DNA from: Chlorobiaceae bacterium
Lineage (GTDB): Bacteria; Bacteroidota; Chlorobiia; Chlorobiales; Chlorobiaceae
Assembly (NCBI GenBank): GCA_013334925.1
Contig: JAAXWP010000015.1
Location: 1 to 46,619 of the forward strand
Reading direction: 5' to 3'
Length of the DNA: 46,619 nt
Positions 3,976 through 46,619 of this stretch are shown piece after piece. Below the pieces are notes generated by a model. It saw nothing but the letters and a program-made list of their open reading frames with translations, was not told where the DNA came from and did not search any database. The translations under genes and the position numbers were made by a program. Each line of letters opens with the position of its first letter. The stretch's first letter is position 1.

Positions 3976-3982
3976 TGTATCA

Positions 3983-4003
3983 GTGACGAGTGACAAGTGA
4001 CGA
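3983..4003 (+). repeat. Three-unit GTGACRA heptamer repeat behind recG
   Basis: Three perfect 7-bp units (GTGACGA, GTGACAA, GTGACGA) begin 7 bp after the recG stop codon. The 24 bases at 3981-4004 are identical to the first 24 bases of the 40-unit array behind ftsK (46051-46074). Confidence 0.9.
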
Positions 4004-4033
4004 GGAAGAGTTGCCATGATGGTTACAGCCGGT

Positions 4034-4141
4034 CCATAGGTCTTATAGGTCAGATGGGTCGGATAAGTAGGATAGTTTCAATAGGACCCATAGGACCCAT
4101 AGGACTCATAGGTCCCAGAAGACCCAACAGACCCATGAACC
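4034..4141 (+). repeat. Nonamer tandem repeat in two opposed arms
   Basis: Twelve consecutive 9-bp units fill the recG-rsgA gap. Units from about 4034 to 4078 read CCATAGGTC, TTATAGGTC, AGATGGGTC and then decay. Units from 4079 to 4141 read mostly CCATAGGAC, whose complement (GTCCTATGG) contains the TATGGGTC-like pattern of the first arm. The two halves are therefore in roughly opposite orientation and could fold together. Units at the outer edges are degenerate. Confidence 0.75.
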
Positions 4142-20879: not shown

Positions 20880-21719
20880 ATGGTCTGGTTCAAACGGGCG
20901 AAGCCCTCAATCCGCACGACGGATAAACGTGATACTCCTGAAGGGCTCTGGACGAAGTGCGACGAATGCGGTGCGGCACTTCATAAAAAACAGCTCGAGG
21001 ATCACCAGTACACCTGTCCCGAATGCGGTCACCATTTCCGCATCTCGCCGCTCGAATACTTTTCCATTCTTTTCGATGGCGGAGTCTACGAGGAGTTCGA
21101 TACCGGACTTCGCGCCGCCGATCCGCTCAATTTCACCGATACGAAGAACTATCCCGACCGTGTTCGTGAAACCATGTCCAAGACCGGAAAAACCGAGGCC
21201 TGCAGGAATGCTGTTGGCAACATGGATGAGCATCCCGTCGTTGTTTCCGCTATGGATTTCGGGTTCATCGGTGGTTCGATGGGTTCCGTTGTCGGCGAGA
21301 AAATTGCCCGGGCTGCCGACAGGAGCCTCGAACTCAATGCTCCTCTCGTTGTCATTTCACAGTCAGGTGGCGCCCGCATGATGGAAGGTGCATTCAGTCT
21401 GATGCAGATGGCCAAGACAGCGGCACGACTCACCAGGCTGGGCGAGAAGGGGATTCCGTTCATTTCGCTCATGACCGATCCGACCATGGGTGGCATCAGC
21501 GCCTCGTTCGCCATGCTTGGCGACATCAATATCAGCGAACCGAAAGCCCTGATCGGCTTTGCCGGTCCCCGCGTCATCCGCGATACCATCAAGCGCGATC
21601 TTCCGGAAGGGTTCCAGCGTGCCGAGTTTCTTCAGGAGCACGGTTTCGTTGACCTGATCGTTCACCGCAAGGATCTTCGTGATCAGCTGATAAGGTTGTT
21701 CGGCCACATGCAGGGGTGA
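20880..21719 (+). CDS. accD: Acetyl-CoA carboxylase carboxyltransferase subunit beta
   Basis: AccD with AccA transfers the carboxyl group from biotin to acetyl-CoA, giving malonyl-CoA for fatty-acid synthesis. The 279 residues begin with a zinc ribbon of four Cys (CDEC...CPEC, near residues 23-45) and continue into the crotonase-like carboxyltransferase domain with [28 protein letters not shown] and [12 protein letters not shown]. All signature blocks are present and length is normal. It is divergent from the patatin gene with 41 bp between start codons, so promoters overlap. The gene ends ahead of a large inverted nonamer repeat facing thyX. Confidence 0.97.
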
Positions 21720-21726
21720 GAACAGC

Positions 21727-21864
21727 GTGGACTATATGGAAGAAATGGACTGAATGGACGGGATGGACCTGATGGACTGAAAAGAGCGTTTCGTCAAAGC
21801 TCTTCTTACATTGTCCATTATGTCCATTTCCTGCATTCGTCAATTGAGTCCATCACGTCCATTT
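21727..21864. repeat. Inverted pair of nonamer arrays between convergent accD and thyX
   Basis: Six 9-bp units of ATGGACNNN type occupy 21727-21780. Six units of the complementary sense (such as TTGTCCATT, ATGTCCATT) occupy 21811-21864. The 30-bp centre contains its own small hairpin, AAGAGC at 21782-21787 with GCTCTT at 21799-21804. The whole block can fold into one long imperfect hairpin in the 154 bp between two stop codons, suiting a bidirectional 3'-end structure. Several units are degenerate. Confidence 0.8.
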
Positions 21865-21873
21865 CCTCTTCTC

Positions 21874-22560
21874 CTACTTCCATCCCATCGCACTGCTCGT
21901 CACCGGGAACTGTTCGATGAATAGCTTCATGACCGCTTCGGCGATGTCGCGGTGCTCCTTCTGGGTGCTCGGGTCGGTGCGCACCTCCAGGTAGTGGAGC
22001 CAGCTCCTTACCGAGCCCTTCATATAGAGCTTGGTCTGTGTGCCGAGTGGCAGCAGGGTGCGGGCACACTCTTTCGCGATCCCTTTCTCGAGAGCCTCCT
22101 CGTATTTCTCCATGGTCAGCTTCGCCACGTGTTCCTGGGCTTCGTCAAACCAGCTGACGGTCGCAGCATCGAGGTCTTCCAGCGAGTTCTGGCGGTTTTT
22201 CACATCCTGCCTTCTCGGCTGGTACTTCTCGATAGCTTGCGCTTTGGCATATCTCATGGAAAATTCCTGAAAGCAGAACGACCTGTGCCTGAGAATCTGC
22301 GGTGAGATGGCGCGGGAGGTGACGATCTCCACGGTCATGTCAACCATCTCGAAGACGCTCCAGTGCTTGTGCGTGATGCAGTAGGAGAGCAGCTTCGCGT
22401 AGTCGGGCGTTTCCTGGTGCGGGCTCGATACCCGGGCGCAGTAGGCGATGAGCCCTTCCGGGGTGAGCTGGCGGTTGTCGATCTCGATGAGAGGGTTCGT
22501 GACGGAGATGAGGCGTACCTGCATGCTGGGTGACGGGATGGTTGGAGGTGCTTCAGACAT
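21874..22560 (-). CDS. thyX: FAD-dependent thymidylate synthase ThyX
   Basis: ThyX makes dTMP from dUMP using methylenetetrahydrofolate, with FAD and a reduced pyridine nucleotide. The 228-residue protein holds the diagnostic RHR-x7-S motif exactly (Arg91-His92-Arg93...Ser101 in [15 protein letters not shown]). Other conserved parts are [10 protein letters not shown] near residue 42 and [11 protein letters not shown] near 61-71. It is minus strand, convergent with accD across the nonamer inverted repeat and divergent from clpP. Confidence 0.97.
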
Positions 22561-38913: not shown

Positions 38914-38979
38914 TCCAGTGGTTTGACTCTGCTACGCGACTCGCTGGCGGCGTTGGGCGGTGCTCGAAATCCTCACGGC

Positions 38980-39046
38980 CCCCGGGTTAAAACCCGGGGC
39001 TAGATGAATGTAAGAGTATCAAATGTCCGCAGGGTTAAAACCCTGC
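38980..39046. repeat. Double-hairpin dispersed repeat behind rel
   Basis: CCCCGGGTT-AA-AACCCGGGG at 38980-38999 and GCAGGGTT-AA-AACCCTGC at 39029-39046 are two near-perfect palindromes with 2-base loops, 29 bases apart. The same plan recurs at 46516-46584 with changed stems but similar linker (GAATG...AATGTCCG). It occupies part of the 234-bp gap between rel and a convergent gene. Confidence 0.75.
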
Positions 39047-39147
39047 TGAAGAATTCCGGTTTCTGTGCTCCGTCCGCCTTGACATCGAGTCGCTCACGAC
39101 GAATCAAACCACTGGAAGCTTTCGCATGAGCTGGTTCATACCATAGG

Positions 39148-46049: not shown

Positions 46050-46052
46050 GCA

Positions 46053-46332
46053 GTGACGAGTGACAAGTGACGAGTGACGAGTGACAAGTGACGAGTGACG
46101 AGTGACGAGTGACGAGTGACGAGTGACGAGTGACAAGTGACAAGTGACGAGTGACAAGTGACAAGTGACAAGTGACGAGTGACAAGTGACAAGTGACGAG
46201 TGACGAGTGACAAGTGACGAGTGACGAGTGACAAGTGACAAGTGACGAGTGACAAGTGACAAGTGACAAGTGACAAGTGACAAGTGACAAGTGACAAGTG
46301 ACAAGTGACAAGTGACAAGTGACAAGTGACGA
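46053..46332 (+). repeat. 40-copy GTGACRA heptanucleotide array with two-state variable base
   Basis: Exactly 40 contiguous units of 7 bp, all GTGACGA or GTGACAA, with no other change (280 bp). By hand count 17 units carry G and 23 carry A at position 6. From the left the pattern is GAGGAGGGGGGAAGAAAGAA, then GGAGGAAGAA followed by nine A and one G. The array starts 3 bp past the ftsK stop and ends in GTTTCTGG. Because 7 is not a multiple of 3, every frame gives a 7-residue protein repeat (such as LVTCHLS on the minus strand), which makes spurious reading frames. It resembles the short tandem heptamers of cyanobacteria in kind, not sequence. Confidence 0.95.
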
Positions 46333-46390
46333 GTTTCTGGTAGGGGCACGGTGTGTCGTTCCTCTGTTTGTAACTGATTTTCTTCAATAG

Positions 46391-46457: not shown

Positions 46458-46488
46458 TTGTCATGCTTCGCTCCGCTCAGCATGACAA
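46458..46488. repeat. Inverted repeat with 10-bp arms
   Basis: TTGTCATGCT (46458-46467) pairs perfectly with AGCATGACAA (46479-46488) around TCGCTCCGCTC. TGTCATyCT-ended repeats of this sort are widely scattered in bacterial genomes (recalled); the copy at 28021-28107 has similar TGTCAT ends. Confidence 0.65.
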
Positions 46489-46515
46489 GAGAGGGGATAT
46501 TTTTTTCTATCTCCT

Positions 46516-46619
46516 CCCCGGGCTGAAGCCCGGGGCAATTGAATGAAAAGAAGAGGATACTCAATGTCCGTCGGGATAAATCCCTCCTGAATGCAAGAGC
46601 CTGAAGCCCGGGGCTACAC
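46516..46619. repeat. Second copy of the double-hairpin dispersed repeat
   Basis: CCCCGGGCT-GA-AGCCCGGGG (46516-46535) and GGGAT-AA-ATCCC (46573-46584) repeat the plan of the element at 38980-39046, with the shared linker words GAATG and AATGTCCG. A further CCTGAAGCCCGGGGCTAC at 46600-46617 looks like the start of another copy, cut off by the window end. Confidence 0.75.

Follow-up and report, generated by a model that had tools for sequence, protein, structure and literature searches.

Inward-facing RTGGACNNN arrays behind stop codons form a dispersed repeat family in a Chlorobiaceae genome

Two opposed arrays in the accD–thyX gap

We analyzed a 46,619-nt stretch of DNA from a Chlorobiaceae bacterium (the window; assembly GCA_013334925.1, contig JAAXWP010000015.1), in which the genes for the acetyl-CoA carboxylase carboxyltransferase beta subunit (accD, 20,880–21,719, plus strand) and a flavin-dependent thymidylate synthase (thyX, 21,874–22,560, minus strand) converge. 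Both gene names proposed by the first-pass annotation agree with their Pfam domains (PF01039, Carboxyl_trans, and PF17848, Zn_ribbon_ACC, in accD; PF02511, Thy1, in thyX). The gap between them (21,720–21,873) holds two opposed arrays of short units, identified from the sequence and by pattern search, which begin 7 nt from the accD stop codon and 11 nt from the thyX stop codon.

The left arm (21,727–21,777, plus strand) has six units at period 9, namely GTGGAC, ATGGAA and four exact ATGGAC hexamers starting at 21,745, 21,754, 21,763 and 21,772, separated by the spacer triplets TAT, GAA, TGA, GGG and CTG in that order. The right arm (21,813–21,862, minus strand) contains four exact ATGGAC units and one ATTGAC, seen on the forward strand as GTCCAT at 21,813, 21,822, 21,848 and 21,857 and as GTCAAT at 21,839. 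An 11-nt insert (TTCCTGCATTC) between its units 2 and 3 breaks the register with a single 17-nt step. The gap had been described as six units facing six with period 9 kept on both sides, which holds for the left arm throughout, but the right arm has five units and its period is interrupted once. Between the arms, the sequence and its fold show the expected central inverted repeat (21,782–21,804), with AAGAGC (21,782–21,787) and GCTCTT (21,799–21,804) enclosing an 11-nt loop and flanked by A-rich and T/C-rich tracts. Next to it lies an accessory motif, CTTACATT (21,805–21,812; AATGTAAG on the minus strand, where it is read), which adjoins many arms of the array family when their inner flanks are listed.

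Within the window, ATGGACNNNATGGAC is matched seven times when up to one mismatch is allowed, compared to 0.22 expected, which is not chance. No Rfam family matches the window at gathering scores. The RNA from 21,700 to 21,890 has a minimum free energy of −67 kcal/mol, which not one of 200 shuffled sequences matched (z = −4.2), and a separate folding run of the two strands gave z-scores of −4.8 and −4.5. The proposal that the whole gap forms one long hairpin is therefore supported on both strands, with a stability above the shuffled background of about 4 to 5 standard deviations.

A dispersed family with a fixed core and free triplets

A look for the same nonamer at other convergent junctions had been suggested, and it is abundant there. 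The host genome (G000) has 166 matches to ATGGACNNNATGGAC and two to the reversed pattern, this reversal rather than other hexamers being the sole control for RTGGAC abundance, and we counted 36 arrays in convergent gaps across stretches of two genomes, G000 and its congener G020. The G000 stretches hold about 31 arrays, most of them inward-facing pairs with a spacer of about 40 nt. Three of its loci (L302, L303 and L312) have irregular arrays with extra or interrupted units and unequal arms, and are possibly intermediate or decaying copies. Within the genus, which is probably Chlorobaculum, 19 of 21 genomes carry TGGAC arrays at period 9, the congeners G003 and G004 being without them; none were found in the family's other genus or in those further members of the order and phylum that were searched.

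We quantified unit conservation using only middle units with two perfect neighbors, so that the middle unit itself was unconditioned. Core positions carry 1.6 to 2.0 bits each and triplet positions 0.04 to 0.7 bits. Conservation of the core reaches 96% or more at every position except the first (A or G); the three spacer bases vary almost freely, although their make-up is non-random, with G, T and A preferred and C rare. The suggestion that the ATGGAC core is the conserved part while the triplets drift is thus supported. Pairing of triplets across arms is no better than in draws from each genome's own pool (mean z of 0.2 and −0.25), and full-stem pairing was rejected on this ground. In G020, 47 of 48 middle units in arms that have no partner keep an intact core. 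As the core is kept without a partner array and the triplets are unpaired, it is the hexamer sequence, and not base pairing, that is maintained.

Genomes differ in their version of the core. The ratio of ATGGAC to GTGGAC is 230:19 in G000, and that of GTGGAC to ATGGAC is 162:15 in G020. With the exception of G019, the genomes that use GTGGAC fall into one well supported clade. The G007 genome is mixed (62 of 117 triples are pure ATGGAC), and G001, G008 and G010 have ATGGAC arrays at period 10 as well. Some junctions carry arrays in both G000 and G020, about six of them matched on both sides and roughly another five on one side. The arrays there cannot be aligned, and each is written in the dialect of its own genome. 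The accD–thyX gap itself contains ATGGAC arrays in G000, G007, G008 and G010 and on one side in G013, and GTGGAC arrays in G006, G012, G014 and G020. The remaining genomes of the genus have plain hairpins, heptamer arrays or other palindromes there, or, in G005, G021 and G022, hardly any gap. These varied contents indicate that the gap is a slot filled by different modules. Among the orthologous gaps, which are strongly diverged, no clean empty site with a target duplication was seen.

The pattern also occurs far outside the genus. Among the matches listed, pattern-matching contigs bear labels from at least the Chlamydiae, Lentisphaerae, Hydrogenedentota, Sumerlaeota/BRC1, Cloacimonadota, Planctomycetales, Opitutaceae and Desulfomicrobium, with more besides. 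When the triple TGGAC pattern is counted over whole genomes, with the reversed control in brackets, the totals are 495 (0) in a Chlamydiae metagenome-assembled genome (MAG), 647 (0) in Lentisphaerae, 577 (7) in Hydrogenedentes, 590 (40) in Oligosphaera ethanolica DSM 24202, 437 (2) in Sumerlaeota and 292 (0) in BRC1. Contamination is no explanation, even though several of these genomes are MAGs, since G020 is complete and the Oligosphaera genome belongs to a named strain. Loci in these phyla show the same core and triplet statistics and an inward polarity of 18:1, in a set that includes two Chlorobiales loci. In the Chlamydiae MAG (G061; for example, C3:56402–56497), ATGGAC and YTGGAC dialects coexist, apparently unmixed within an array. 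A viral origin was rejected, as the core is weakly conserved in pattern loci on viral contigs and these loci appear to be mostly coding. From the patchy occurrence alone, we infer that the arrays have spread horizontally between phyla. A tentative extension is to treat the inward RTGGACNNN arrays of several phyla as one class of prokaryotic repeat that has spread horizontally, with a putative dedicated factor for recognition or amplification whose specificity would set the genome-wide dialects (ATGGAC, GTGGAC and YTGGAC, at period 9 or 10).

Position behind stop codons and alternative explanations

Gaps between convergent genes hold 36 of the 64 classifiable arrays of G000 and G020, and tandem gaps hold the other 28, so that no array lies in a divergent gap (P = 10^−13 for the convergent excess and 3 × 10^−5 for the divergent absence), with gene calls made by a simple codon-usage caller and not a standard annotation. 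Outside these 64, one G020 array lies inside a called gene and five lie at contig or stretch edges. The scored paired loci are RTGGAC-first, and so inward-facing, in 34 cases to none (25:0 and 9:0). Because the tandem gaps of G000 mostly hold pairs too, the inverted layout is not just a by-product of convergent genes.

This placement would fit a 3′-end signal selected by the host, in which RTGGAC hexamers are putative mRNA or DNA sites past the stop codon for a host factor that controls termination, processing or stability, the dialects reflecting its co-evolution. The first unit is often found 3–22 nt past a stop codon, in the same orientation as the gene just ended. Of 20 single arms located in convergent gaps, 16 are nearest the gene that shares their sense (P = 0.012), the core is kept in the absence of a partner arm and the dialect is genome-wide. 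However, the signal would have to be dispensable, since G003 and G004 have no arrays and the accD–thyX gap of some species is array-free or nearly absent. Moreover, the arrays of other phyla are intergenic yet not limited to 3′ ends (by crude gene calls), which argues that the 3′-end habit is owed more to the host genome than to the element. The genus also lacks CsrA (0 of 14 genomes examined), which removes CsrA sites, with their GGA motifs, as an identity for the arrays. We consider a host-selected signal a serious but unlikely explanation.

Less probable still is that the arms are merely the stem of a plain bidirectional intrinsic terminator with A-rich and T-rich shoulders. The arrays resemble such terminators in their convergent gaps, shouldered layout and stable two-strand hairpins, and nearly all paired loci of the family fold strongly on both strands. 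A T-rich 3′ shoulder (at least 4 T in 8 nt) is found at 30 of 61 sites in G000 compared to 5 of 40 controls, and the array-less accD–thyX gaps of congeners often hold another hairpin, several of them terminator-like. The T enrichment is nevertheless weak in G020 (17 of 50 versus 7 of 35), a T/C-rich shoulder is present at only part of the array loci, and a scan of 21,650–21,950 found no canonical terminator (a GC-rich stem followed by a U-tract). The array stem, unlike that of an intrinsic terminator, is periodically interrupted by 3 × 3 internal loops where triplets stay unpaired. Pairing alone also needs no single fixed hexamer throughout a genome, and single arms are conserved equally well. 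The first-pass suggestion of a bidirectional 3′-end signal consequently stands in part: the arrays do lie at gene 3′ ends, but the terminator scan, the intact cores of partnerless arms and the other locations of arrays in other genera (crude gene calls) count against a termination signal. A terminator function of the arrays is plausible.

Ordinary microsatellite-like slippage, with a core that nothing recognizes, is very improbable. Some G000 arrays have clearly slipped recently (TTG five times and GAC five times in succession; 15 identical neighboring triplets versus 4 expected), but slippage would mutate all nine positions alike, in contrast to a core conserved at 96% or more (bar the A/G of position 1) beside nearly random triplets, and it does not account for fixed polarity, genome-wide dialects or a hexamer common to distant phyla. 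Hardly credible is a coding Met-Asp-X repeat, or an uptake-sequence system. The unit ATGGACNNN does make up three codons, and uptake sequences, too, form paired terminators and differ in dialect (PMC3630211, PMC2267715). However, in-frame TGA is the commonest G000 triplet (17 of 163), period-10 arrays coexist in three genomes, and cores elsewhere than in arrays number about 79 where 87 are expected, without the enrichment of uptake sequences.

Known repeat systems and a proposed explanation

REP/BIME elements are dispersed, extragenic and palindromic, and often lie 1–20 nt past a stop codon (PMC12306157). Together with their RAYTs, they resemble the arrays in their dispersal, their extragenic location near gene 3′ ends and their palindromic layout. 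A REP, however, is a fixed palindrome of 20–40 nt, whereas the arrays conserve only a hexamer at period 9; and a RAYT gene is flanked by its own repeats, whereas the RAYT genes of this genus are flanked by palindromes that are not arrays. We therefore rejected RAYT/IS200 (PF01797) as the mobilizer: the RAYT-like genes (L339 of G000, L333 of G020 and L336 of G015) have no TGGAC arrays and are flanked by a different palindrome family, of the CCCGGGCTGAAGCCCGGG type and GGGCTGAAGCCC / CCCCGGGCTGAAGCCCGGGG. The class of RAYT-like gene is weakly associated with array number (P = 0.026, kinship ignored). The flanking palindromes are evidently the genes' own REP family, and similar ones occur in the window at 38,914–39,147 and 46,480–46,619. 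A motif, AATGTAAGAG / CTCTTACATT (at 21,805–21,812 and in many arms), recurs both in TGGAC arrays and beside RAYT-type palindromes, linking otherwise different repeat families.

The nearest short tandem systems are the STRR heptanucleotide arrays of cyanobacteria and the TAACTGA repeats of Beggiatoaceae (PMC4679880), which similarly have short tandem units, are mostly intergenic, abundant, dispersed and patchy across phyla, and have no established mechanism. Their unit is 7 nt, compared to a period of 9 (163 and 111 steps in the stretches of two genomes) or 10 with six fixed and three free bases, and they lack the paired inward layout and strict polarity of the arrays; TAACTGA repeats are mostly upstream of start codons and almost never inverted (PMC4679880). 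Heptamers are also found in the material studied here. About 40 copies of AGTGACR fill 46,052–46,334 of the window, beginning a few bases past a stop codon; heptamers of this type form opposed GTGAC/GTCAC arms in the accD–thyX gap of G019; and a tandem gap at 3,982–4,126 combines them with a second nonamer family, ATAGGACCC, that resembles the ATRGGACG nonamers of congeners.

The uptake sequences of Neisseriaceae and Pasteurellaceae share inverted pairs at gene ends and species dialects with the arrays (PMC3630211), and uptake-sequence terminators are mentioned in PMC2267715. Unlike the arrays, which are tandem, occur in several phyla and have cores at or below uniform expectation elsewhere in the genome, uptake sequences show a genome-wide excess of single copies, also within genes. 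Each of these systems shares traits with the arrays, but for each at least one defining feature is missing here. Our literature search found no description of a nonamer array family, the nearest accounts being PMC4679880 and PMC12306157. The arrays are short dispersed intergenic repeats, similar to REP and STRR, and may be a distinct class.

The reading we prefer, with a probability of roughly 0.45, is that the gap array is one copy of a dispersed RTGGACNNN family whose hexamer is recognized, which turns over fast, is shared between phyla and persists at 3′ ends. The hexamer would be kept fixed by a putative sequence-specific factor or by a machinery that copies units, while the triplet drifts. 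Adjoining triplets of G020 resemble each other less than expected by chance (0.238 versus 0.364; P = 0.0002), as if identical neighbors were purged, which counts against simple unit copying because copying does not predict such unlikeness. Our search among RAYTs, CsrA and reverse transcriptases yielded no machinery for the arrays, the last being missing from the array-rich genomes G000, G018, G061, G062, G063 and G065. Arrays would turn over rapidly, be rebuilt in whichever dialect the genome uses (ATGGAC or GTGGAC) and be exchanged between phyla. In the compact genomes of what is probably Chlorobaculum, they would persist at 3′ ends with RTGGAC in the sense of the gene just ended, and two arrays between convergent genes would make a symmetric hairpin and a possible two-way 3′-end element. 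Candidate host roles include termination, protection of transcript ends or a damping of translation as for REPs near stop codons.

If this reading is correct, a very abundant intergenic repeat system, present in several phyla at tens to hundreds of arrays in each genome, has apparently gone undescribed so far. Its fixed core, free triplets, strict polarity and species dialects would allow a direct search for a trans-acting factor or a copying enzyme. Its position immediately behind stop codons would provide a testable model for the making and remaking of 3′ ends in bacteria that are otherwise difficult to study.
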